Below, in pieces: positions 3,434-19,382 of a DNA stretch of 64,000 nucleotides. The stretch covers positions 62,001 through 126,000 of the forward strand of contig CAIKZZ010000021.1 of assembly GCA_903832085.1 (NCBI GenBank), given 5' to 3'. The position numbers and the translations under genes are program-made. Position 1 is the stretch's first letter; every line of letters starts with the position of its first letter. Source of the stretch: an uncultured Pseudomonadota bacterium (lineage in GTDB: Bacteria; Pseudomonadota; Gammaproteobacteria; Steroidobacterales; Steroidobacteraceae). The notes under the pieces are model-generated. The model searched no databases. It was not told the DNA's origin and saw only the letters and a program-made list of their open reading frames with translations.

Positions 3434-3639
3434 GGCCAGATCCTTGAGGTCAGGGCGTCGACGGACATGTGTCAAGAACAGTAACACCGATAAAAAGCCG
3501 CTGCACTATGCACGCAAAAAACCGCAGCCGGGATGCCCGAAAGGGGCGCTGGAGTGTATCCTCAAGCTCCCATGCAGACACGCGCCTTCCAGATCTTCAT
3601 TGTGCTGATTCGGCAGAGCCGCACTCATTGGAGTGGCTT

Positions 3640-4914
3640 ATGAGCGTCCGTGCGCCGCGGTATTCCGCGTGGTCTTTGTTGCGTGGCCGGTTTTCGGGGC
3701 CTGGTTTTTGGCGGCCGCTGTGGTCCGGCCGTCAGCTACAGAAAGCCTATGACGTGGTGGTGGTGGGAGCGGGCGGCCATGGACTGGCCACCGCCTATCA
3801 TTTGGCGCGCGATCATGGCGTCCGGCGAGTCGCAGTCCTCGAAAAGCGACTCGTTGGCTATGGCAACGTGGGTCGCAACACCACCATTGTGCGCTCCAAT
3901 TATCTGCTGCCCCAGAACCACTACTTTTATGAAGATGCGCTACGTCGGTGGGAGACGCTATCACGCGATCTGAATTATAACGTGATGTACAGCCCGCGCG
4001 GGGTGTTGGATTTGGCCTTATCGGATGGCGAGATGGTGAGCCTCGCGCGACGTGGCAATGCGATGCGTCTGGCAGGCATTGATGCAGAGCTGATGGATCG
4101 TGCCGGGGTGATGAAGTTTGCCAAAGAGCTCGTGCCGGCCGGCACCCGCCGCTTTGATATTGTGGGCGGGCTCTTGCAACAACGCGGTGGTACGGTGCGC
4201 CATGATGCCGTGGCGTGGGGTTATGCACGCGCGGCAAGTGCACTTGGTGTTGATATTATCGAAGACTGTGAAGTGACGGGGCTGGTCACCACGGCTGGTG
4301 TGGCAACCGGTGTTGAGACTAGTCAAGGCCCTGTCGCGGCTGGACAGGTGGTGTTTGCAGTGGCAGGCCACACAGGCGCGATCGGCACCATGCTCGGTGT
4401 ACCGCTACCGGTGGAAACACACTTATTGCAGGCGATGGTCACGGAGCCGATTAAGCCGCTCATCAACTCTGTGCTGATCTATGTGCATCCGCACGGCGAG
4501 GTGTACATCTTGCAGTCGGATCGCGGTGGCGTCGTGATGGGCGGGTTCCTTGACGGTTTTCCCTCGTACACGCGTGAAGGCCGCTGGTCGCGTCTGGAGG
4601 ACGTGGTGCAAAGTGCAGTCGCATTGCTGCCACAGATTGCGGGCTTGCGCGTGTTGCGCCACTGGGCAGGCACCAACGATATGACCATGGACGGTAGCTT
4701 TATTATTGACCGTATTCGCTATGACAATGTGTTCTTAAATGGCGGCTGGTGCTATGGCGGATTTAAGAGCATTCCCGCATCGGGTGCCGCCTGTGCGCAA
4801 TTCGTCGCAACCGGTACGGCTCCTGATTTGATTCGTGCGCATACGTTAAGTCGCTTTGCGAGTGGGCATCTGCTGGATGAGCGTGGCGGCGGGCCCTTTC
4901 CGGTGCGACTATGA
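3640..4914 (+). CDS. soxB: Sarcosine oxidase subunit beta
   Basis: The beta subunit of heterotetrameric sarcosine oxidase, which oxidises sarcosine to glycine and passes the methyl carbon to tetrahydrofolate in the alpha subunit. The protein is 424 residues. The dinucleotide-binding motif VVVVGAGGHG is near residues 40-48. The RHDAVAW motif around H188 matches the position where related SoxB proteins bind FMN covalently through histidine. The ATG at 3640 is preceded by GGAG at about 7 bases; an open frame reaches back to 3469 but that stretch looks unlike protein. It is first of four sox genes, with soxD beginning 10 bases after its stop. Confidence 0.93.
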   Translation: MSVRAPRYSAWSLLRGRFSGPGFWRPLWSGRQLQKAYDVVVVGAGGHGLATAYHLARDHGVRRVAVLEKRLVGYGNVGRNTTIVRSNYLLPQNHYFYEDALRRWETLSRDLNYNVMYSPRGVLDLALSDGEMVSLARRGNAMRLAGIDAELMDRAGVMKFAKELVPAGTRRFDIVGGLLQQRGGTVRHDAVAWGYARAASALGVDIIEDCEVTGLVTTAGVATGVETSQGPVAAGQVVFAVAGHTGAIGTMLGVPLPVETHLLQAMVTEPIKPLINSVLIYVHPHGEVYILQSDRGGVVMGGFLDGFPSYTREGRWSRLEDVVQSAVALLPQIAGLRVLRHWAGTNDMTMDGSFIIDRIRYDNVFLNGGWCYGGFKSIPASGAACAQFVATGTAPDLIRAHTLSRFASGHLLDERGGGPFPVRL

Positions 4915-4924
4915 GGGTGGTGTC

Positions 4925-5164
4925 ATGATGCGACTGACATGTCCCTTCTGCGGTGCGCGTGAACTGCATGAGTTTCAGTTTCATAAGACGGCCCCAGAGC
5001 CCGGCGCTAATCCATTTGCGGCGGTCTATGAACGGGTTAATCGCACAGACATAAGTCAGGAGTACTGGCAGCACCTGCACGGTTGCCGCGCATGGCTCTA
5101 TGTGTCTCGCAATCCAAGTACCGGTGAGGTGTATCAGGTGCACTTGCTGGGGACACAGTCGTGA
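4925..5164 (+). CDS. soxD: Sarcosine oxidase subunit delta
   Basis: A 79-residue zinc-binding delta subunit of sarcosine oxidase. The ligands C6, C9, H50 and C54 are all present with the Cys-x2-Cys and His-x3-Cys spacing known from the crystal structures of the family. Starting at the first of two tandem ATGs (4925) gives exactly C6 and C9. GAGGGTGG lies upstream. The stop overlaps the GTG start of soxA by 4 bases, so translation is probably coupled. The subunit is structural and sits at the alpha/beta interface region of the complex in the cytoplasm. Confidence 0.9.
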   Translation: MMRLTCPFCGARELHEFQFHKTAPEPGANPFAAVYERVNRTDISQEYWQHLHGCRAWLYVSRNPSTGEVYQVHLLGTQS

Positions 5165-8106
5165 CCTTGCGCCGTGCGCTATCAACACGTCGCGGTCATC
5201 GTGTGACCTCGCAGTCCGTCAGCTTTCAGTTCGATGGGCGTGAGTACACGGCGCAAGCGGGCGACACCGTCGCCTCTGCCTTGCTTGCGCACGGTGTGCG
5301 GTTATTTGGGCGTAGTGTCAAATACCGCAGGCCACGCGGCGTGTTTGCGGCAGGACCTGAGGAGCCGAATGCTTTACTCACAGTTGGCACACAACCGTGC
5401 GTGATACCGAATGTCTCTGCCCCACAACTGGCGATCACGCCGCAATTAATTACACGCAGTCAAAATCGCTGGCCGTCGTTACGTGTGGATCTGCATGCTC
5501 TGTTGCAGGCAGGTAGCGGCTTTCTCGGTGCCGGATTTTACTACAAGACATTTATGTGGCCGTCGTGGCGAACGTACGAAACCATGATTCGTCATTTAGC
5601 CGGGTTAGGTGAAGCACCGGGTGCTGCTGATATCGCGCCACCGCACGTGGAGTACGTATCGTGCGATGTGTTGGTGGGTGGCGCAGGCGCCGCTGGGCTT
5701 GCGGCGGCCCTTGCGGCCGCGCGGGCTGGTGCACGTGTGGTGGTGTGCGAGCGTGAGCCACAAGCGGGTGGGGAGCTCGAATTTGAGACAGCAACGATTG
5801 ATGAGCAGTCGGCAACCGAGTGGGTGAGCTCAGCTCTGGCGGAGCTCGCCCGCGCGGGTGCGCGCGTGCTGTATCACACCGCGATTGTGGGTGGGTCCGA
5901 TGGACTGGTCATTGCGCATGCTGAACCGGGCGGCGGTGCCAAAGACAACACGGTGTATCGCATTCGACCGCAAAAGTTTGTGATGGCAATGGGCGCGGTT
6001 GAGCGAGGCATCGCATTTGTCGATAACGACCGGCCGGGCGTCATGCTCCTGGGTGCAGCGGAGCGTTACCTCGCCCGCTATGGTGTGGCCGTCGGCAAAG
6101 AACTGGTGTTGTTTGGCAATCACGATCGGCTGTATGCCAGTGCCCAGCGGCTGCATGCTGCCGGCATGCGCATTCGGGCGATTATCGATACGCGCGGCGA
6201 TGTGTCAGCTGTGACCATCGGCCTGCGAGCAAGGCTCACCGGCATGGGAGTGGAGTGTCTTGGCGGTCATGCGGTGGCTGAGGTACACGGCGCTCATGGC
6301 GTGCGTCGCATTTGCGTTGTTGATTTGCAAGCGCCTGGAACCAAGATCTTTATCGAATGCGATGCACTGTTGGTCAGTGGTGGCTGGACGCCGATGTTGC
6401 AGGCAGCGTTGCACGATGGCGGGCAGCGGGAGTTCGCCGCGCAGGCAGGCGGATTTGTAGCGAATGCTCAACCCGAGTGGCGCACCGCCGTGGGGGCTTG
6501 TGCCGGGACGTTTGAGTTAAGCGTGTTACTGACGGAGTCCTTTCGGGCAGCAGCGCAACTGAGCCAAAGCGTTGGTGCCATGGGCGTGGTGGGACGCGCG
6601 CCGGTTGGACGCGGGGACACAGCGCCGCAACTGCAGGCATTTTGGCGCTCTGCGTGCACACGTGCGCAAGAGAAAAGACAATTTGTTGATTTGCAAAATG
6701 ACGTGACGGTGGCGGATTTGCGCTTAGCTCTCAGCGAGGGCTTTGTAGATATAGAGCACATTAAGCGCTACACAACGCTCGGGATTGGGACCGAACAGGG
6801 CCGCACGGGTGGTTTGCTCGGAGCAGCGATCGTCGCTGAACTCAAAGGCGAGCCCTTGTCGCGCGTGGGCGTGAGTCGTACGCGCCCCCCCTATCAGCCG
6901 ATGACGCTCAGTTCACTGGCGGGACTCAATCAAGGTGATGCACTGCGTGTGACCCGTCGTACGCCATTGCATGCGTGGAACCAAGCGAATGGTGCCGTCT
7001 TTGAGCCGGCAGAGTATTGGTTGCGCACGCGTTACTACCGAGCCAACGGTACAGATGCATTCACCGCTGGAATCCAGGAAGCCACGCAAGTGCGGGCACA
7101 CGGCGGTATTTTGGATGGCTCTACTTTAGGAAAAATCGAGATTGCAGGCGCGGATGCGGCAGCGTTTTTGGATCGGTTGTATTTGACTAAAGCCAGCACA
7201 ATGAAAGTCGGGCGCTCGAAGTACATGGTGAACTTGCGCGAAGATGGCATGGTACTCGATGACGGTATTGTGCTGCGCTTAGCGCCGAACCGTTTTCTGG
7301 CAACCACGGGTTCGGGGCATGCCGAGCACATGCTGTCGCATTTTGAGCATTACCGTGCGCTCGAGTGGAGTCACCGGCAGGTGGCGATCACGAATCTCAC
7401 CGAAGCGTGGGCGGTGATTGTGGTGGCGGGTCCTGAAAGCCGCGCCGCTTTGATACGCGTGCTTGGCGAGGCGTGGCATGCGCGTCTTTCAGGATTGACG
7501 CACATGGATTTTAGTGTGTCCCGCTGGAATGGACAGACACTGCGCGTGTTGCGAGCGAGCTTTTCAGGTGAGCTTGCGTTTGAGCTGCACTGTCAGCACG
7601 GGATAGCGGTTCCATTGTGGGAAGCCCTCGTTGCCGCTGGCTTGCAGCCCTATGGTCTTGAGGCTTTGGATATATTACGTGTCGAGAAAGGCTACCTCGT
7701 GAGTTCCGAGATGAATGGCGAAGCGACCCCGCAGGATTTGGGGATGGATGGGTTAGTCAATTTAGGCAATGAATGCGTGGGTCGAGCCATGCTGGGCCGT
7801 CCTGCGTTTGCCGAGCCACAGCGGCCCCGCTTGGTGGGCTTACGCGCCTGTGATGGCAAAAGCGTGATTCAAGGCGGGGCGCAAATCACCCTCACCACCA
7901 CAGACACGCACGCGCTCGGTCATGTCTCCTCCAGTGTCTATAGTCCAGCGCTTGGTCAGTGGATCGCACTCGCCTTTGTGGCACGCGACCGCGCTGCACC
8001 GGGTACGGTGCTAGTGGCTAGAGACCCACTGCGCGGTACGGATGTTGACGTGGTAGTGACATCGCCTGTGCACGTGGATTCTTCGAGTGAGCGTATGAAA
8101 GCATGA
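5161..8106 (+). CDS. soxA: Sarcosine oxidase subunit alpha
   Basis: A 981-residue alpha subunit. In order: a ferredoxin-like domain without cluster cysteines (about 16-90), an NAD/FAD-type Rossmann domain with GGAGAAG at 173-179, and a GcvT-like folate-binding domain from about residue 600 to the end. In this family the GcvT domain turns the imine produced by the beta subunit into 5,10-methylenetetrahydrofolate. The start is a GTG overlapping the soxD stop (GTGA); the first 15 residues are rich in arginine and the next ATG-like start is not obvious. The stop overlaps the soxG start (ATGA). Length is normal for the family. Confidence 0.93.
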   Translation: MTLRRALSTRRGHRVTSQSVSFQFDGREYTAQAGDTVASALLAHGVRLFGRSVKYRRPRGVFAAGPEEPNALLTVGTQPCVIPNVSAPQLAITPQLITRSQNRWPSLRVDLHALLQAGSGFLGAGFYYKTFMWPSWRTYETMIRHLAGLGEAPGAADIAPPHVEYVSCDVLVGGAGAAGLAAALAAARAGARVVVCEREPQAGGELEFETATIDEQSATEWVSSALAELARAGARVLYHTAIVGGSDGLVIAHAEPGGGAKDNTVYRIRPQKFVMAMGAVERGIAFVDNDRPGVMLLGAAERYLARYGVAVGKELVLFGNHDRLYASAQRLHAAGMRIRAIIDTRGDVSAVTIGLRARLTGMGVECLGGHAVAEVHGAHGVRRICVVDLQAPGTKIFIECDALLVSGGWTPMLQAALHDGGQREFAAQAGGFVANAQPEWRTAVGACAGTFELSVLLTESFRAAAQLSQSVGAMGVVGRAPVGRGDTAPQLQAFWRSACTRAQEKRQFVDLQNDVTVADLRLALSEGFVDIEHIKRYTTLGIGTEQGRTGGLLGAAIVAELKGEPLSRVGVSRTRPPYQPMTLSSLAGLNQGDALRVTRRTPLHAWNQANGAVFEPAEYWLRTRYYRANGTDAFTAGIQEATQVRAHGGILDGSTLGKIEIAGADAAAFLDRLYLTKASTMKVGRSKYMVNLREDGMVLDDGIVLRLAPNRFLATTGSGHAEHMLSHFEHYRALEWSHRQVAITNLTEAWAVIVVAGPESRAALIRVLGEAWHARLSGLTHMDFSVSRWNGQTLRVLRASFSGELAFELHCQHGIAVPLWEALVAAGLQPYGLEALDILRVEKGYLVSSEMNGEATPQDLGMDGLVNLGNECVGRAMLGRPAFAEPQRPRLVGLRACDGKSVIQGGAQITLTTTDTHALGHVSSSVYSPALGQWIALAFVARDRAAPGTVLVARDPLRGTDVDVVVTSPVHVDSSSERMKA

Positions 8107-8618
8107 ACACGAGCACAAGCCTGATTATGGAGCAACGATGTCAGATTCAGTCCTTCGCCACGACAGTGGCGGTGGAGTTCAAAGCATTTCAGTATCCGTT
8201 GGTGGGTACGGTCAGCGCAGAATTGCCCAGCGAACCGGGTGCGGTGCGGCGCGACACGGCGGGGAACGCCACCCTATTACACTACGGGCCTGGGGTATTT
8301 TTAGCGCCCTTACCGAACGAGGCGCTACTGCATCGATTGCAGACACTTGAGACAGCGGGGCTGGGCGCAGTGTTTGACGTGTGTGGGCAGTGGCATCAGT
8401 TTCGCCTGACAGGGGCATTGAGTACGCGCCTCTTAAGTAGTGGCATTGATATCGAGCACTGCGTGCCGCGGCGTGACTGCGCAGCGGTACATTTATTTGA
8501 TAGTCCTGCGCTGTTGTTGCTGCAATCGACTGGTTTTGATGTGTGGGTCCCTGCAAGTTATGCCACGGCGTTTTCTGCCACGCTCGTGCGATTGCGCGAG
8601 CGGTTAATCAATGCGTGA
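8103..8618 (+). CDS. soxG: Sarcosine oxidase subunit gamma
   Basis: A 171-residue protein whose position last in soxBDAG and overlap with soxA (ATGA) mark it as the gamma subunit. Sequence conservation in this subunit is weak; the pattern GPGVFLAPLP... followed by DVCGQWHQFRLTG...LLSSGIDIEHC agrees with the SoxG/GcvT-like fold. It has no cofactor motif, as expected for a structural subunit. The 69 bases after the stop contain a short run of seven T's but no convincing stem, so transcription may continue into the CoA-transferase gene. Confidence 0.85.
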   Translation: MNTSTSLIMEQRCQIQSFATTVAVEFKAFQYPLVGTVSAELPSEPGAVRRDTAGNATLLHYGPGVFLAPLPNEALLHRLQTLETAGLGAVFDVCGQWHQFRLTGALSTRLLSSGIDIEHCVPRRDCAAVHLFDSPALLLLQSTGFDVWVPASYATAFSATLVRLRERLINA

Positions 8619-9944: not shown

Positions 9945-10747
9945 GCGATCTTGATGCAAAAGCACGCGACAAACACTCTGTCGCGACACTATTTGATCTG
10001 ACGGGGCAGCGTGCGTTAGTCACTGGTGCCTCCACGGGACTCGGGCGGCACTTTGCATTGGCGCTTGCGCGCAGTGGCGCCGAGGTGATCTTGGCGGGCC
10101 GCACGGCCTCGACATTGGCGGATGCGGTTGATGCCGTGCGTGCCGAAGGTGGTAAAGCGCAGGCGATGTCACTGGATGTCTCGGATGCAGCCAGTGTGAG
10201 CGCAGCACTCACTGCGTTAAGGCAAGCGCAGTCCTTACCGACCATCCTGATTAATAACGCAGGGACCACAGTGTCAAAACCGATTTTGGATCAGACCGAG
10301 CAGGATTGGGATCAGGTGCTTGATACTAACCTCAAAGGCGCTTTTTTGATGGCTACCGAGTGCGCACGCCGTTGGCGCGCCGAGCAGCAGCCTGGCGTGA
10401 TCGTGAACATTGCCTCGATCTTAGGTTTGCGTCAGGCAGGGGCGGTGGGCCCGTATGCTGCTTCAAAAGCGGGGCTGATTCAGTTCACGAAGGAATTGGC
10501 GCTGGAGCTTGCGCGCTTTCAGATACGCGTCAATGCCATTGCGCCCGGGTACATTGAAAGTGGATTAAATAGCGAATTCTTTGCAAGCGAAGCCGGTCAG
10601 CGACTCATTCAACGGATTCCCCAACGACGCTTAGGGACGGTGGAGGATTTGACTGGCGCACTTTTATTGCTCGCCTCCGATGCCTCGCGTTTTATGACAG
10701 GCAGCGTGATCGCAGTTGATGGCGGCCACCTTGTGAGTTCTTTGTGA
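9941..10747 (+). CDS. SDR family NAD(P)-dependent oxidoreductase
   Basis: A 268-residue classical short-chain dehydrogenase. The nucleotide motif TGASTGLG is at 28-35, NNAG at 105-108, and the catalytic residues S159 and Y172-x3-K176 are in place. The C-terminal segment SVIAVDGGH is typical. It starts in a 4-nt overlap with the CoA-transferase, so the two are probably co-translated. A 3-oxoacyl-ACP reductase or beta-hydroxyacid dehydrogenase activity is possible, but the family is too broad for a firm substrate. Confidence 0.88.
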   Translation: MSDLDAKARDKHSVATLFDLTGQRALVTGASTGLGRHFALALARSGAEVILAGRTASTLADAVDAVRAEGGKAQAMSLDVSDAASVSAALTALRQAQSLPTILINNAGTTVSKPILDQTEQDWDQVLDTNLKGAFLMATECARRWRAEQQPGVIVNIASILGLRQAGAVGPYAASKAGLIQFTKELALELARFQIRVNAIAPGYIESGLNSEFFASEAGQRLIQRIPQRRLGTVEDLTGALLLLASDASRFMTGSVIAVDGGHLVSSL

Positions 10748-12645: not shown

Positions 12646-14331
12646 TTACTGAAGAACCACTCCAACCCCGCGCCCTCGCGGATCAGCGACTGCAATGGTA
12701 CGCGCGGCCGTCACTAAAATACTTTGCATGTCGCCATCCCAGCCTTGGTTCTCAAAGACGTACCCACGCGTCGCGAGTTCGGCTTTCGTGGCTGCGTCCA
12801 GCTGTTTATATGGCTCCTCGAACAGCGTATTGACCGGTAATAACTGATGGTGAATGCGGGCACTTGCGACGGCGCTTTGCAGCGGCATATCAAAGTCATG
12901 CCAATTGGTGAGTACCTGAAAGATCGAGGTAAAAATGCGCGATCCGCCAGGGGTACCTAAGACGAGCGCCACATGACCGTCCTGCGTGAGGATGGTGGGG
13001 GTCATGGACGACAAGGGGCGTTTGTTAGGTGCAATTGCATTCGCATCCCGGCCCACGACACCAAAAATATTGGGCACGCCGGGCTTGGCAGAAAAATCAT
13101 CCATCTCGTTATTCAATAAAAATCCGGCCCCTGTGACAATGACTCCAGAGCCAAAGGAGTCATTTAAGGTGTATGTATTTGAAACCGCATTGCCCCAGCG
13201 ATCAAGCACTGAGAAGTGGGTGGTGTTGTGGTGCGCCGTGAGCCCGGGGCTCACGGCAGCGAGTGGCGTGGGTAAGTCGAGGCTCACATCAGCGACGCGG
13301 CGGGCGAGATACTCAGGCGAGAGCAAGGCAGTCACCGGCACTGGCCAATAATCAGGGTCTCCCAGCGATTCGGCGCGATCGGCAAACACGCGCTTATCGA
13401 TTTCGGCAAGCAGATGCACGTACTGCGCTGAGTTGAGCGGTAGACCCGCAAACGCCGGCGCTAAGACAGCTTTCATCGCCAAGAGCGAGATGAGCGCAAT
13501 ACCGCCGGAACTTGGCGGTGGGGCTGTGATGAGTTCATATCCAGCCCACGGTGAGACGAGCGGTGTACGCCACACCGGTCGGTAGGCAGCCAGATCCGCA
13601 CGGGTGATCAAACCGTGGCCGCGGTGCATTTCCTTCACTAGCAGCGTCGCGGTCGTGCCGCGGTAAAAGCCGCGCGGTCCTTGCTCTGCAATGCGTTGCA
13701 AGGTCGCCGCGAGTTCGGGCTGTCGATGCACACGACCGGTTTGCAATTGGCCAAAGTAGCGCGCGAAATTGGTTTGTGAGTGCAGTGCAGCAAGCTCTTC
13801 ATCCCGCCCTGCGACTAAATCACGATCCACCACAAAACCATGGCGGGCGTAATGCAGTGCGGGGGCAAGATCGGTGCGCCAGGGCAGTTTGCCAAAGCGT
13901 TGGTGTAGGGCCCACAGACCCGCAACCGTCCCAGGAACTGCAACGGCACGGGCACCGACGGTACTCGCTTGCTCAATGACATCACCCGCAGCGGTCAGAT
14001 ACAGGTCGGCATGTGCGGCTGCAGGGGCTGTTTCGCGGTAATCCAAAAAATAAGGCCTACCCCCCATATAGAGAGTCGCAAAGCCGCCACCGCCCAAGTT
14101 TCCCGCTTCCGGGTAGGTGACCGCGAGCGTAAAGGCAATGGCTACCGCGGCGTCAACCGCGTTGCCACCGGCCGATAAAATCGTTGATGCTGCGCGTGCG
14201 CCATAGGCATCGGGTGTTGCGACCGCTGCGGGTTGAGTGGCCCTCGCAGTCCAACTAACCAGCGTGAAAAACGCTGTAATTAGCAGGCAAAACTGACGTC
14301 GATAAAAAAAGAATTGGGATGTCACGCGCAC
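12646..14331 (-). CDS. ggt: Gamma-glutamyltransferase
   Basis: A 561-residue proenzyme that transfers or hydrolyses the gamma-glutamyl group of glutathione and similar compounds in the periplasm. A hydrophobic segment (about 13-28) acts as signal peptide. The autocleavage site precedes T370 in the TTHFSVLD motif, and the following GNAVSNTYTLN and GSGV elements fit the substrate pocket. Length is normal. The start is a GTG at 14331; a second GTG 6 bases downstream is possible. The 187 bases upstream, to the MttB-like gene, hold no gene. Confidence 0.9.
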   Translation of the reverse strand: MRVTSQFFFYRRQFCLLITAFFTLVSWTARATQPAAVATPDAYGARAASTILSAGGNAVDAAVAIAFTLAVTYPEAGNLGGGGFATLYMGGRPYFLDYRETAPAAAHADLYLTAAGDVIEQASTVGARAVAVPGTVAGLWALHQRFGKLPWRTDLAPALHYARHGFVVDRDLVAGRDEELAALHSQTNFARYFGQLQTGRVHRQPELAATLQRIAEQGPRGFYRGTTATLLVKEMHRGHGLITRADLAAYRPVWRTPLVSPWAGYELITAPPPSSGGIALISLLAMKAVLAPAFAGLPLNSAQYVHLLAEIDKRVFADRAESLGDPDYWPVPVTALLSPEYLARRVADVSLDLPTPLAAVSPGLTAHHNTTHFSVLDRWGNAVSNTYTLNDSFGSGVIVTGAGFLLNNEMDDFSAKPGVPNIFGVVGRDANAIAPNKRPLSSMTPTILTQDGHVALVLGTPGGSRIFTSIFQVLTNWHDFDMPLQSAVASARIHHQLLPVNTLFEEPYKQLDAATKAELATRGYVFENQGWDGDMQSILVTAARTIAVADPRGRGVGVVLQ

Positions 14332-14518: not shown

Positions 14519-16069
14519 TTAGGGTTCGCCACGACCAATAGCCAGACGGCGCTGTCTGACATAGGCGTCGAGTTCCTCACGTCTAGCGGCATCGAGTACG
14601 GGGGCTTCGTACTCCTGCAAGGCGCGCTTCCATACGCTATGCGCACGCACGGTGGCATCCTTGCCACCGTCGAGTTGCCAGGCTTCGTGGTTTTGCCAAC
14701 TCGATACCAGCGGCTCATAAAACGCATGTTCATAGCGCTCCATGGTGTGGGGGTCGCCAAAGAAGTGGCCACCCGTCGGCACTCGACCGATCGCATCCAG
14801 ACCGAGCTCTGCGTCCGTCACTGCAATGGGTTTTAAAAACTCAATCATCATCTGCAGCATCTCCACATCCAGAATCAGCTTCTCGTAGGATGCCGTGAGG
14901 CCGCCTTCTTGCCAGCCCGCCGCGTGATACACCAGGTTGGCATGGCCAAGCACGGCGCCCCACAGGGACATTTGAGTTTCGTAGGCACCTTGCGCATCGG
15001 CAGCATTGGAGGCACTGGCATTGGAGCTGCGATAGGGGAGTCCATAGCGGCGTGCGAGCTGACCGCTAGCGACGTTGGCTTTCGCATTTTCTGGAGTCCC
15101 AAAGGCGGGCGCTCCCGAGCGCATGTCCACATTCGAGGTGAAAGCGCCATACATCACGGGGGTCCCTGGATTGACCAGCTGTGCAAGTACGACGCCAAAC
15201 AACGCTTCGGCATTTTGCTGTGCAAGTGCTGCCGCAAGGGACACAGGCGCCATCGCGCCCATGAGGGTGAAGGGCGTGATGATCACGGGTTGGCCGAGTT
15301 CTGCCATAGCAATTAAACCATCGGACATGGCCTCGTCGTAGCGGCGTGGGCTATTGACCGAAATAATGGTCATGACGCCCGGGCTTTGCTGCATGGTCTT
15401 GAGCGACACACCACGAGCAATTGCCATCATGTGGATGCCATCGCGGGCACGTCCCCGTCCAATGGCTGTGCAGTGGTAGCTCAAATCCGAATACAACAGA
15501 TTCGCCAGATACGCATCCAGATGCCGGGTATTGGCCGGTAATTCCACCGGCGCACACACTTGGTTGCCCAGTAAATGGATGGCGTTGAAGTGATGCGCAA
15601 GACGAATGAAATCGCAGTAGTCACTGTAAGAACCCGCCCGACGACCCCGTTCCAGATCGTGCACAAACGGAGGTCCCGCTACCAAACCAAAGTTCAGATG
15701 CTGACCACCAAAGGTGAGGCGCTTGTTCGGATTGTGAGAGGTCAGATGAAAGAGTGCTGGCGCTGTCGCGAGCGCTTGTGCGACTAAGCCTCGATCGAGG
15801 CGCACGTTACCGGTGGCTGCATCCACTTCCGCGCCCGCTGTTGCGAAGTACTGACGCGCATCAGCTGACATGACTTCGATGCCAAATTCTTCCAAGATAC
15901 GCAAGGACGCCAGATGAATCGCTTCTACCTGATCGGCAGATAGGACCGACAGGGGCGCATGCGGGTTGATGACCGCTTGCCACGGTAGCTGCGGTAAGCG
16001 ACCGTTGGTGGGTCGCCGGCTGCGGCCACCCGTGCGTCGGCGTGGCAGATGATTGGGCGTGGTAGTCAA
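14519..16069 (-). CDS. MttB-family methyltransferase (non-pyrrolysine)
   Basis: A 516-residue member of the trimethylamine methyltransferase (MttB) superfamily. The N-terminus is arginine/glycine-rich (RRRTGGRSRR), then comes SADQVEAIHLASLRILEEFGIEV, the usual opening of this family in aerobic proteobacteria. The frame is uninterrupted, so it does not use an in-frame amber codon for pyrrolysine. Such enzymes demethylate quaternary amines (glycine betaine, proline betaine, carnitine in studied cases) onto a corrinoid protein. No corrinoid protein or reactivator gene is present in the window. It starts in a 4-nt overlap with the upstream serine hydrolase gene. The substrate is unknown. Confidence 0.85.
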   Translation of the reverse strand: MTTTPNHLPRRRTGGRSRRPTNGRLPQLPWQAVINPHAPLSVLSADQVEAIHLASLRILEEFGIEVMSADARQYFATAGAEVDAATGNVRLDRGLVAQALATAPALFHLTSHNPNKRLTFGGQHLNFGLVAGPPFVHDLERGRRAGSYSDYCDFIRLAHHFNAIHLLGNQVCAPVELPANTRHLDAYLANLLYSDLSYHCTAIGRGRARDGIHMMAIARGVSLKTMQQSPGVMTIISVNSPRRYDEAMSDGLIAMAELGQPVIITPFTLMGAMAPVSLAAALAQQNAEALFGVVLAQLVNPGTPVMYGAFTSNVDMRSGAPAFGTPENAKANVASGQLARRYGLPYRSSNASASNAADAQGAYETQMSLWGAVLGHANLVYHAAGWQEGGLTASYEKLILDVEMLQMMIEFLKPIAVTDAELGLDAIGRVPTGGHFFGDPHTMERYEHAFYEPLVSSWQNHEAWQLDGGKDATVRAHSVWKRALQEYEAPVLDAARREELDAYVRQRRLAIGRGEP

Positions 16070-17886
16070 AATGGACTTAAGCGTTCGACAGCACGAATGG
16101 TTGCAGGTCCCGTGTCGTCGAAGATCGGCATGCCAGTAGGAACTTGCGATGCTTTGGCGGTGCGTATGGACACGAGTCCATTGGGGAATAAGATGGCTTC
16201 GTTTTCACCAGACCCGGACATGGTTGGTAAGTAGTGACGGATGCCGGTGCTGCGACTCACATAGGGCGTGTAGTGAAAGCCGAGCTGATACAGCTGCTCA
16301 TCACCGCGATCGGTGTCGGCTGCACTCGCAGCGCTTTGCAAAGATGCATCGCCTGATTTGACGCGCGCGCCGCGGGCTGCGAGTAGATCGTCAGTGAGTT
16401 GTCGGTGCAGCAGTTGCTTACCACCCTGTGCGCCATGGTGCTGGTACAGCAACGCGATTTTGGCAATGTCATCGAGCGTGGGATAGTAGCCGGCGTTAAA
16501 CCACACCAAGCCTTCGCGATCATCTGCCTCGCGTGTATGCACTGCTGGAGCGTGGACGATCCCGATGGGGGCGAAGACTTCCTCTTGCAGCATCTGCCAG
16601 ACGTCAGCGGATGATCCGCGCATGGATTTTAAGAAGGCATCGACCGCCGCACCGAGTAGATAAAAATCTTGGTCACGATACCGTACGACCGTGCCTGGGT
16701 TCCATGGGTAAGGATGCAACGTCGCGCGTATTGCTGCGATTTTGTCCGTCTGCGAATGGGCGAGATACCAAGCGTCGTAATCGCCGCCGAGGTAGCCATC
16801 ATAGATATCGTTAGGCGCTGTTTTAAAGCTGCCGGTACCGCCAAAGCCGCTCGCCATATTGGCCGCATCGATAAAACGAATCTGTTGCCACTTTGGATCA
16901 AGGTTTGGCACGTAATCACCAATGCGCAACGTGAGTACCCACGGGCCGTAGACCTCAGCGAGGTGCAGTAGCGACAGGGGTGCCGCCACGCTCTTCATCA
17001 TGGAGCGCACACCAAAGCGCATCTCGAGTGGGTAAGGATAAGGGCCAAAGGGCGTCGCGGACGCTTGGTAATACAGAGTGTCGTCTCGTACCAGCGCTGT
17101 GGCCACTTGCCATTCGGGACGCAAGGGCCCACCGAAACCATCCAAGGTACGGGGTGGTACAGATGCTGTTAGGTTTTGCCACGGCTGTGCGGGTAGACGA
17201 CTCGCGAGCTCCTGTCGACCGGCGTGGCGCACAGCGGTGCTGTCAGCCGCGGATAGCGGTGCGGCCATGGCAGCGAGCTGTCCGGCAGCCACGAACTGCG
17301 GTGTGAGTAAGTAAGGTCCCGTTTGCTGCACGAACTGCACGCGGATATCACTGATCTCGTGTTTGCGATACACAAAGGTGGCCAAGCCTTGATGTGCATG
17401 ATTTTCTGTGTCATTCACGAGCATGAGTGGGAAGGCGGCGCGCGACCAATCCCCATCGCGGGCTTCGTGCCAGACGCGCCCGTACTGTGGAATCACACGC
17501 CAGTAGCTAAAGACATGTGGGCTGCCCGTTTCGCGCACCATAAGACCTGCTTCAGCGGGAATGAGGACGTCCCCCTCGGTGGCGAGCGTGAGCGTGATTG
17601 CAGGGAACAGACGTGCATCGCGGCCCTCAATCACAGATTGCAGGATCGCTGGTGTGAGGCTGAGCGTGCCTTGGTTGATCCTGATGCGACTTGCAAACGG
17701 CGCGCCTACCGCGGCGCTTGCGGGTGGCGCATACGCTGCATTGTTAATGGGCGCGGTTGCCGTGTGATTGCCCAGTAGACTGTGGATGGGTAAGAGGACG
17801 GCGGGCGAGTCAATGGCGGCCGCAGAACCACTTGAGAAGTGCGCAATTAGCAGCAGAGTCGTCTGCCATTGGAGCCAACGGTTCAT
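16066..17886 (-). CDS. Exported SxxK serine hydrolase (beta-lactamase-related)
   Basis: A 606-residue protein with a signal peptide (about 1-24), an N-terminal domain of some 230 residues with no family I recognise, and a C-terminal penicillin-binding/beta-lactamase-like domain. The nucleophile motif is SMMK, S295 to K298. The middle motif is less clear (YRDQDFYLLG). GGGGGC lies just before the ATG. The gene overlaps the MttB-like gene by 4 bases, so both are made from one message. Amidase or esterase activity on a small exported substrate is more likely than beta-lactam resistance, given the extra domain and partner. Confidence 0.75.
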   Translation of the reverse strand: MNRWLQWQTTLLLIAHFSSGSAAAIDSPAVLLPIHSLLGNHTATAPINNAAYAPPASAAVGAPFASRIRINQGTLSLTPAILQSVIEGRDARLFPAITLTLATEGDVLIPAEAGLMVRETGSPHVFSYWRVIPQYGRVWHEARDGDWSRAAFPLMLVNDTENHAHQGLATFVYRKHEISDIRVQFVQQTGPYLLTPQFVAAGQLAAMAAPLSAADSTAVRHAGRQELASRLPAQPWQNLTASVPPRTLDGFGGPLRPEWQVATALVRDDTLYYQASATPFGPYPYPLEMRFGVRSMMKSVAAPLSLLHLAEVYGPWVLTLRIGDYVPNLDPKWQQIRFIDAANMASGFGGTGSFKTAPNDIYDGYLGGDYDAWYLAHSQTDKIAAIRATLHPYPWNPGTVVRYRDQDFYLLGAAVDAFLKSMRGSSADVWQMLQEEVFAPIGIVHAPAVHTREADDREGLVWFNAGYYPTLDDIAKIALLYQHHGAQGGKQLLHRQLTDDLLAARGARVKSGDASLQSAASAADTDRGDEQLYQLGFHYTPYVSRSTGIRHYLPTMSGSGENEAILFPNGLVSIRTAKASQVPTGMPIFDDTGPATIRAVERLSPF

Positions 17887-18011: not shown

Positions 18012-19382
18012 ATGATGACGACCGTAGACGCGACGGTGTTGGGGCCTGCCCCTGTCGAGGGGCATATCGAATTTGAGGACGCGCCGTTACGGACCTTTCA
18101 TTTGCGCCTCGGCATTGCCAGCATCGGCGGCGTGTTTAGCGATGGCTATGGTCTGGGCATTATTGGTTTGAGTTTGAGTCTGGCCACGCCGGAGCTAGGG
18201 CTGACGCCGGTGTGGTTGGGTCTCATTGGCGGTGCAGCGTTAGCGGGGCTTTTCGCTGGGGCCTTACTCACGGGACCGTATGCCGATACACACGGACGAC
18301 GTCCGGTGTATGCCTGGAACATGATTCTTCTGGGCCTACTGTCAGTTGCTCAATTTTATGTGCGCGATGTGGGCTTATTACTGGTCTTACGGCTCGGTAT
18401 TGGTTTTGTGCTGGGCACTGATTATGTGGTGAGCAAAACGCTGCTGTCAGAGCTCATGCCGCAACAGGTGCGTGGACGTATTTTAAGTTTTTTGTCTGTC
18501 GCGTGGGCGGGAGGCTACGCGAGTGCCTACTTTGTGGGCTTTGCAATGACAGCGAATGGTTCTACCTCGTGGCGCTGGATGTTGCTCACGAGTGCGCTAC
18601 CATGCTTATTGGTCATTCCGTTGCGACTGACTATTCCAGAGTCTCCCGTGTGGCTTGTGAAGCGAGGGGATATACAGCGCGCACGTGAGGTTGTTCAGCG
18701 CGTGCTGGGGCCGCATGTCATGCCACCGCCGATCGATGTTCATCCGTGTGAGATGCGTGGCACACTGATTAGCCGCTGGTCGATCTTGTGTGCGCCGCCG
18801 TGGCGGCGCCATACCATCGTGGGCTGTGTGTTTTTTACCTGCCAAGTGATCCCGTATTTTGCCGTGGGCACGTTTGTGTCACAGGTACTGATCGCGTTGC
18901 AGCTGCAAGGCGGTTACATGGGCGGGCTTGTGTATAACAGCGCCTTATTATTGGGTGCTGTCGCTGGCGTTTTTATTGTGCACAGACTGCCGCGGCGCCG
19001 CGCACTCATCGGGAGCTTTGCCATGGCAGCCAGTGCGATGCTGGTATTAAGTACGAGTAGCCACTTAGGCCGCGTCGCGGTGATCTGTTTATTTGCTGTC
19101 TTTGCCAGCGTGTTGTCGGCAGCCAGTAATTTAGTGTACGTGTACTTGCCGGAGTTGTTTCCAACCCAAGTGCGCGCCTCTGGTATAGGACTTGCGATCG
19201 CCTGCAGCCGGATCGGCTCTGCGGTGAGCACCTTTTTACTACCGATTGTCGTGGCGGGCTACGGGGTACGCGCGGCGTTGGGTGCCTGTGTGGTGGTGCT
19301 GAGTTTGGGAGCGGTGTTGTGCGCGTGGCTTGCTCCCGAGACGAGGGGCGTACGCATCAGTGAGGCGGCGCCTGCACACTGA
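18012..19382 (+). CDS. MFS transporter, aromatic acid/sugar symporter type
   Basis: A 456-residue transporter with about 12 membrane segments. GPYADTHGRRPVY is the motif A loop and PESPVWLVKRG sits in the central loop, as in the AAHS/sugar-porter group. It begins with an ATG at 18012 and is divergent from the SxxK hydrolase-MttB pair, with 125 bases of shared upstream DNA. It could import the compound those genes use; this is an inference from position only. Confidence 0.85.
   Translation: MMTTVDATVLGPAPVEGHIEFEDAPLRTFHLRLGIASIGGVFSDGYGLGIIGLSLSLATPELGLTPVWLGLIGGAALAGLFAGALLTGPYADTHGRRPVYAWNMILLGLLSVAQFYVRDVGLLLVLRLGIGFVLGTDYVVSKTLLSELMPQQVRGRILSFLSVAWAGGYASAYFVGFAMTANGSTSWRWMLLTSALPCLLVIPLRLTIPESPVWLVKRGDIQRAREVVQRVLGPHVMPPPIDVHPCEMRGTLISRWSILCAPPWRRHTIVGCVFFTCQVIPYFAVGTFVSQVLIALQLQGGYMGGLVYNSALLLGAVAGVFIVHRLPRRRALIGSFAMAASAMLVLSTSSHLGRVAVICLFAVFASVLSAASNLVYVYLPELFPTQVRASGIGLAIACSRIGSAVSTFLLPIVVAGYGVRAALGACVVVLSLGAVLCAWLAPETRGVRISEAAPAH

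Follow-up and report, generated by a model that had tools for sequence, protein, structure and literature searches.

The DNA analysed here (the window, a stretch of 64,000 nucleotides corresponding to positions 62001-126000 of contig C21) belongs to the genome of an uncultured member of the Steroidobacteraceae (G000; 2.65 Mb, 98.9% complete). On its reverse strand lies a gene pair that encodes a hydrolase carrying an SxxK motif and a methyltransferase of the MttB superfamily (Table 1). The initial annotation had described the pair as overlapping by four bases and had proposed that the hydrolase releases an N-methylated compound ahead of its demethylation. Both open reading frames were recovered as annotated, and the overlap is plainly there: the hydrolase stop codon TGA (16068-16066) and the MttB start codon TTG (16069-16067) have TTGA in common. 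From the preceding in-frame stop to the part that is homologous to other MttB proteins, this TTG is the only ATG, GTG or TTG start in the MttB frame. Across 16 hydrolase-MttB pairs (that of the window and those of 15 other loci) a plausible MttB start was found at -4 to +28 bases from the hydrolase stop, the overlap being exactly 4 bases in five of them, which makes a single message and translational coupling plausible.

Table 1. Position of the genes and features discussed (clade A comprises the closer homologues of the hydrolase, as defined in the text)
Feature	Position	Strand	Basis or remark
SxxK hydrolase, 606 aa; possible Sec signal peptide, predicted N-terminal beta-barrel and predicted penicillin-binding protein (PBP)/beta-lactamase-fold domain	16066..17886	-	Open reading frame; AlphaFold model, Foldseek, VIA-align 2
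Possible signal peptide, residues 1-24	17815..17886	-	Suggested by the sequence; weak hydrophobic core
Predicted N-terminal beta-barrel domain, residues 40-244	17155..17769	-	Separate model, pLDDT 90.6
SxxK motif S295-M-M-K298, presumed catalytic	16993..17004	-	S and K invariant in 30/30 aligned homologues
Second motif Y403-R-D-Q-D	16666..16680	-	Y, R and both D (D405, D407) invariant in 30/30
G558-S-G560-E-N562, presumed place of third motif, no KTG	16201..16215	-	G, G and N invariant in 30/30
MttB-superfamily corrinoid-dependent methyltransferase, 516 aa, non-pyrrolysine	14519..16069	-	PF06253, E 2e-194
4-base overlap TTGA, hydrolase stop TGA / MttB start TTG	16066..16069	-	Sequence
Aerobic corrinoid methyl-transfer hub, including MtgB-like MttB	L103 3463-12137 (G000:C45)		PF02310+PF02607, PF00809, PF14574, MTHFR
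Major facilitator superfamily (MFS) transporter, divergent from the pair; GlcP-related, more weakly SLC22 carnitine/organic-cation carriers and SV2 proteins	18012..19382	+	PF00083; homologue in 16/49 clade-A loci
Sarcosine-oxidase-beta-like (SoxB-like) flavoprotein (DAO), probable later demethylation step	3469..4914	+	TIGR01373; homologue in 15/49 clade-A loci
Sarcosine-oxidase-alpha-like (SoxA-like) protein with folate-binding GCV_T domain	5161..8106	+	PF01571, PF17806; homologue in 14/49 clade-A loci
Small open reading frame after SoxA, in the place of SoxG	8103..8618	+	Identity suggested by position only; no Pfam match
Gamma-glutamyltransferase, directly after the pair	12646-14331	-	No relative in the 49 clade-A loci

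The hydrolase belongs to a family that has no name in the Pfam and NCBIfam libraries searched. It matched no NCBIfam model and, even with the limit set at E 10, no Pfam model, PF00144 included, so the PF00144 membership implied by the initial annotation has to be dropped; it was a homologue with 38% identity (L019) that reached PF00144 (E 2.9e-7). Searching PDB with phmmer gave unrelated matches only (E 0.48 and worse), and a profile of the hydrolase gave weak local matches of the right fold that were not significant (a putative beta-lactamase, E 0.013, and a NylB-type entry, E 0.14). The label of SxxK hydrolase is nevertheless borne out by the predicted structure and by the invariant S295 and K298. 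The AlphaFold model (pLDDT 88.1) resembles PIB-1 (Z 26.6, 330 residues, 3.4 A), the 6-aminohexanoate-dimer hydrolase NylB (Z 25.7, 306 residues, 3.2 A) and Lsa45 (Z 25.5, 300 residues, 3.1 A), as well as EstG (Z 22.8), the family VIII esterase EstB (Z 20.7) and a D-amino-acid amidase (Z 20.3); among the 50 PDB matches listed Z was 20.2-26.6 over 279-331 residues, and class C beta-lactamases are also found among the fold neighbours of the model. By its predicted fold the protein is an SxxK hydrolase of the PBP/beta-lactamase type. In class C beta-lactamases and DD-peptidases the third motif is KTG. The third motif of the hydrolase, placed by alignment and not by structure, reads G-x-G-x-N without a preceding Lys in all 30 rows and departs from that pattern. 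The protein thus shares its predicted fold, the SxxK motif and the Tyr of the second motif with NylB, EstG, EstB and other family VIII esterases, but differs from them in that it has no sequence-family match, no KTG and an extra N-terminal beta-barrel. For this barrel no Foldseek match was found at E<=0.001. We considered OmpW, OprF, PagL and streptavidin as its relatives and rejected them, since at VIA Z 8.8 (the best) and below the likeness may be merely a common arrangement.

The methyltransferase was correctly assigned in the initial annotation, as it matches PF06253 at 646.7 bits (gathering cut-off 25) over model positions 2-499 of 500. It is not of the pyrrolysine type: it scored 296 bits with the pyrrolysine-type trimethylamine methyltransferase model TIGR02369 (cut-off 525), and an Ala is aligned with the X (pyrrolysine) of 7xcl. 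Five PF06253 genes are present in the genome, and 4 to 10 MttB matches in each genome of the genus (113 in 15 genomes, including a few fragments). The paralogue on contig C45 matched the PDB entries 4yyc and 2qne (MtgB) at 737 and 439 bits, compared with 315 and 307 bits for the window MttB and 357 and 305 bits for a copy on contig C3. The C45 paralogue is on this basis the best candidate for the glycine-betaine enzyme, and, as it is far closer to the MtgB-type structures than the window copy, the latter probably has a substrate other than glycine betaine.

According to the initial annotation no corrinoid protein gene lies nearby. This is true within the window, but the genome does contain one, and the genome search suggested there for a corrinoid protein and a RamA-like activator yielded both in a single cluster on C45 (in the order MttB, PhyH, RACo, pterin-binding methyltransferase, MTHFR, DUF5981, DUF1638 and corrinoid protein). 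PF02310 was found at only two places in the genome, both outside the window contig, namely in the 246-codon frame on C45 and in a 1173-codon frame on C6 that appears MetH-sized, and RACo (PF14574) at one place, on C45. The combination that marks MtgBCD-type systems (corrinoid protein, pterin methyltransferase and RACo in one genome) is present, and a single hub seems to serve several MttB methyltransferases. The objection that no corrinoid protein would be available to the window MttB is ruled out by the C45 protein. This high-scoring corrinoid protein was found in 14 of the 15 genus genomes (not in G005), as was RACo (not in G002); B12-binding matches ranged from 1 to 6 per genome, many genomes having more of them besides the high-scoring corrinoid protein. 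In the C45 hub the gene of the PhyH-like dioxygenase overlaps the MttB end by 4 bases on the opposite strand.

The pair was found conserved in a large part of the genus. Genes were placed in relatives by direct tblastn; chaining of open reading frames apparently chose antisense frames in several GC-rich loci. A homologue of the hydrolase is present in 14 of the 15 genomes (a close one, of at least 51% identity, in 13), and an orthologue of the window MttB (71-78% identity; the window itself 100%) also in 14, besides several paralogues; the genome without that orthologue, G009, has no close hydrolase either and only one of 39% identity. Where this orthologue occurs, it adjoins the hydrolase in 8 of the 14 genomes (G000, G001, G002, G007, G010, G011, G012 and G014), and in G008 and G013 it directly follows the MFS gene. 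In G004 a remnant of about 80 MttB codons lies between the hydrolase and a SoxB-like gene (L027 about 10156-10406, on C58), and the full-length MttB gene of that genome is found on another contig with AraC, DMGDH (dimethylglycine dehydrogenase) and SoxA genes.

Outside the genus we scanned named genomes with the hydrolase alignment and obtained 75 loci, mostly on contigs of proteobacterial metagenome-assembled genomes (MAGs) with unequal flanks, one of them titled Steroidobacteraceae. Of these, 74 could be scored (L186 was dropped for lack of a usable hydrolase match) and fell into clade A (49 loci, 51-68% identity to the window hydrolase, cut at 48%) and the distant clade B (25 loci). Clade-B homologues occur beyond the family, for example in Rhizobium and Shinella; in a search across the class as a whole (369 genomes, with no more than three candidates scored per genome) near-full-length matches were restricted to the window's own family, with four partial matches outside it (E 2e-8 to 1e-4). 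In clade A an MttB gene lies within 300 bp of the hydrolase in 16 of the 49 loci (15 near-full-length; L126 retains a remnant of 13%) and somewhere within the locus in 24, compared with about 0.06 and 1.2 expected by chance (Poisson, from the MttB density in the genus), which rules out chance adjacency. The pair is thus kept, in 8 of 14 genus genomes and, with near-full-length MttB within 300 bp, in 15 of 49 close relatives, and the outcome by which the initial annotation would have been refuted, that homologues never keep it, did not occur. Several residues of the hydrolase are specific to clade A in the 30-row alignment (W259, Y283, Y285, R294, W462 and others) and could form an amine-binding site.

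Two kinds of gene sets surround the clade-A hydrolases. Genes for demethylation (MttB, SoxB/SoxA-type or DMGDH-type) were found in 27 of the 49 loci, and a GATase-AraC regulator in 18, besides the transporter and the sarcosine-oxidase-like proteins counted in Table 1. Genes for carnitine or gamma-butyrobetaine metabolism (a match to carnitine dehydrogenase, or at least two of five genes derived from L141 at 40% identity or more) were found in 11, each of the five genes occurring in 8 to 10 loci. One or the other module is present in 37 of the 49 clade-A loci against 1 of the 25 clade-B loci, or 29 of 36 against 1 of 20 when only loci with at least 8 kb of flank are counted, and both modules occur together in one (L147). 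An example of the demethylation setting is L064, where the order is MFS transporter, AraC regulator with a DJ-1/PfpI domain, hydrolase, MttB, and DMGDH-like, SoxB-like (683 bits, above the model cut-off) and SoxA-like genes; the regulator has the DJ-1/PfpI plus HTH_18 architecture. No quaternary-amine seed genes were found near the clade-B hydrolases L176, L178, L179 and L173 (Rhizobium, Shinella, Rhodospirillaceae).

The carnitine setting is illustrated by L141, with genes for a BCCT carrier (TIGR00842 above its cut-off; 396 of 541 bits with the CaiT model), carnitine 3-dehydrogenase (NF005716, 753.6 bits, cut-off 592) and BKACE and, on the other strand, for an acyl-CoA dehydrogenase, an ADP-forming CoA ligase, a CaiD-like hydratase (334 of 500 bits) and the hydrolase. 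This is the layout expected for conversion of gamma-butyrobetaine and carnitine to glycine betaine. In G008 the hydrolase is flanked on one side by an MttB-DMGDH pair and on the other by a set with carnitine dehydrogenase and acyl-CoA dehydrogenase. In the tree (from which L184 was left out as too short) clade A has support of 100/100 and the main carnitine group forms a separate branch (99/98), and the G008 hydrolase (L147) falls inside the MttB-linked part, so that the carnitine setting is found on two well-separated branches; this points to two or more separate encounters of the hydrolase with carnitine genes. In a set of 150 genomes from the family, MttB was found in all 28 with a hydrolase of at least 50% identity and in 42 of the 122 others (70 of 150 overall), and a carnitine-dehydrogenase match of at least 400 bits in 26 of 28 against 27 of 122, kinship not being removed from either comparison.

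The common denominator of the demethylation and carnitine settings is a trimethylammonium carboxylate, and we consider it about an even chance (a probability of roughly 0.5) that the hydrolase and MttB work together in the breakdown of a quaternary amine of the carnitine type. The gene neighbourhoods of close and distant homologues agree with a release that precedes demethylation, but the most probable product is a carnitine-type compound and not just any betaine, as the initial annotation would have allowed. We infer export, catalysis, substrate, direction of transport and order of steps as follows. The hydrolase, perhaps periplasmic in this organism, would cut an ester or amide by means of Ser295 and Lys298 with Tyr403 and free a small trimethylammonium carboxylate, its likeliest substrate being an O-acylcarnitine (or an ester of gamma-butyrobetaine). 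The OCT-like MFS carrier would import the freed compound or, for a cytoplasmic hydrolase, the uncleaved one, and MttB would transfer one of the N-methyl groups to the only corrinoid protein of the C45 cluster. RACo would keep the corrinoid reduced, the pterin methyltransferase would hand the methyl group to tetrahydrofolate and MTHFR would oxidise it, and flavoproteins of the sarcosine-oxidase or dimethylglycine-dehydrogenase type with folate domains may take off further methyl groups. More tentatively, and with the odds against it, the two-domain family (beta-barrel plus SxxK domain), which occurs mainly in uncultured proteobacteria around this family, could be a dedicated carnitine-ester hydrolase. 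It would then stand at the start of an aerobic pathway that, after cleavage of the acylcarnitine, demethylates carnitine itself by means of a cobalamin-dependent MttB on a shared hub, without trimethylamine or carnitine dehydrogenase.

Several observations weigh against a carnitine-type module. The window has no carnitine genes, and the carnitine dehydrogenase of its genome (618.5 bits) is encoded on C3 beside another MttB and a DMGDH gene, with no hydrolase. MttB and hydrolase lie apart in 5 of the 14 genus genomes with that MttB (G004, G005, G006, G008 and G013), and in G003 (85% complete) MttB is present and no hydrolase was found. Neither module occurs in 12 of the 49 clade-A loci, seven of which have flanks of 8 kb or more (L114, L116, L121, L133, L155, L158 and L163). 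The co-occurrence counts are uncorrected for kinship, the tree needing six changes for the MttB-adjacent label, and the tree is also compatible with a carnitine setting that was gained once and then lost several times. The best PDB match of the MFS transporter is a glucose carrier (GlcP, 103 bits, against 66 for OCTN2, up to 61 for SV2A/B and 53 for OCT1), and the SoxB-like and SoxA-like proteins of the window score below the cut-offs of TIGR01373 (505.9 bits, cut-off 529) and TIGR01372 (954 bits, cut-off 1164). Nor does the regulator of L064 reach the cut-off of the best of 29 models, GbdR (NF052371; 324 bits, cut-off 480).

The export of the hydrolase, which the initial annotation stated, is plausible rather than firm, and the signal segments were judged by crude hydropathy scores that are no substitute for a signal-peptide predictor. 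The N-terminus has plausible features (R3, a short LLLIAHF core and AAA ahead of ID), but the hydrophobic core of the window protein ranks 27th or 28th among the 30 aligned homologues, and its score falls below a cut-off of 1.6. A start-led hydrophobic segment was found in 33 of the 49 clade-A hydrolases. Of the 16 without one, three are truncated at the end of their contig (L128, L129 and L157), three have a weak or split segment (L131, L153 and L174) and ten show no clear signal segment for neither of these reasons (L122, L123, L140, L143, L145, L146, L149, L150, L152 and L158). In these ten, cleavage would be cytoplasmic and the intact compound would therefore have to be small enough for import; members of the family may work in the periplasm or in the cytoplasm.

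The fold by itself does not settle the bond that is cut. NylB (Z 25.7) and the D-amino-acid amidase (Z 20.3) are amide-cleaving neighbours of the model and a gamma-glutamyltransferase lies next door in the window, so the hydrolase might be an amidase or peptidase that frees an N-methylated amino acid (e.g. from trimethyl-lysine peptides or other amides) for demethylation by MttB; we regard this as unlikely, since the gamma-glutamyltransferase has no relative in any clade-A locus and the carnitine context favours an ester. Hydrolysis of choline or glycine-betaine esters, with a pathway via glycine betaine, would fit the sarcosine-oxidase genes and the regulator found in relatives, which is closest to GbdR, a model named for the regulation of choline metabolism. 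It is distinctly unlikely in view of the hub paralogue, which is the more probable betaine enzyme (439 against 307 bits with 2qne), and of the second setting of the hydrolase, that with carnitine genes. That a cell-envelope enzyme of the PBP or EstG kind shares the operon by accident is very unlikely, even though EstG (Z 22.8), Lsa45 (Z 25.5) and class C beta-lactamases are among the fold neighbours: 37 of the 49 close homologues are encoded in one or other kind of quaternary-amine locus, compared with 1 of the 25 distant ones, the third motif lacks KTG, and a sub-branch of the hydrolases appears to be cytoplasmic.

HocS of Pseudomonas aeruginosa is an alpha/beta hydrolase, whereas the hydrolase of the window is an SxxK enzyme. 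In relatives the hydrolase gene comes last in a carnitine operon, a placement that parallels that of hocS. According to PMC5806209, hocS (encoding a short-chain acylcarnitine hydrolase) ends the carnitine operon caiX-cdhCAB-hocS, which is controlled by the GATase-1 AraC regulator CdhR, and carnitine catabolism leads to glycine betaine; the same source states that hydrolases for medium- and long-chain acylcarnitines had not been identified in P. aeruginosa as of 2018. The SxxK hydrolase is a candidate new enzyme type for this gap, the bacterial hydrolysis of longer acylcarnitines (PMC5806209).

The C45 cluster carries the same gene set as the aerobic glycine-betaine system MtgBCD of Ruegeria pomeroyi, which comprises a corrinoid protein, a pterin methyltransferase, a MetF-type MTHFR, RamA/RACo, DUF1638 and several PF06253 paralogues (PMC12478193). 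The window differs from that system in that its MttB is a divergent paralogue and its operon begins with a hydrolase. One corrinoid hub for several methyltransferases is stated of Eubacterium (PMC12478193): MtcB and MtyB of Eubacterium limosum, methyltransferases for carnitine and gamma-butyrobetaine, are non-pyrrolysine MttB paralogues with one common corrinoid protein (PMC8604678). The window MttB is like these in being a non-pyrrolysine MttB that seems to share its corrinoid protein with paralogues; E. limosum, however, is an anaerobe, and a hydrolase partner of MtcB or MtyB is not mentioned in the available part of PMC8604678. Among the titles and abstract openings listed in searches of the open-licence PMC literature, none describes the hydrolase-MttB pair or the hydrolase family, although each component taken singly is of a known kind. 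Up to seven MttB paralogues are found in R. pomeroyi and other marine bacteria (PMC12478193), and many aerobic ones have no assigned substrate. Here one such paralogue is linked by its operon to a hydrolase and a transporter and, via relatives, to a carnitine context, and its substrate is therefore directly testable.

As to the other genes of the window, relatives of its CoA-transferase, APH kinase, DLH and gamma-glutamyltransferase were found in 0 of the 49 clade-A loci and SDR matches in 6, and because of these counts all five were left out of the conserved set. Close hydrolases without the module were found in G005 (L029) and G006 (L032); L032 also encodes a Phosphoesterase-family protein (PF04185) and a MauG-like cytochrome c peroxidase, and genes of L029 cluster with these two. 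The MAG contigs of L130, L151 and L135 are titled Klebsiella pneumoniae or Janthinobacterium lividum; their loci resemble those of the other uncultured members, and the titles look doubtful. In L071 (2551-10470, G066:C9) the gene run consists of an M24 protein, a TonB-receptor-like open reading frame (by clustering), an alpha/beta hydrolase, an MFS transporter and the SxxK hydrolase, and the M24 protein is closest to the dimethylsulfoniopropionate (DMSP) lyase DddP (304 bits, cut-off 600).

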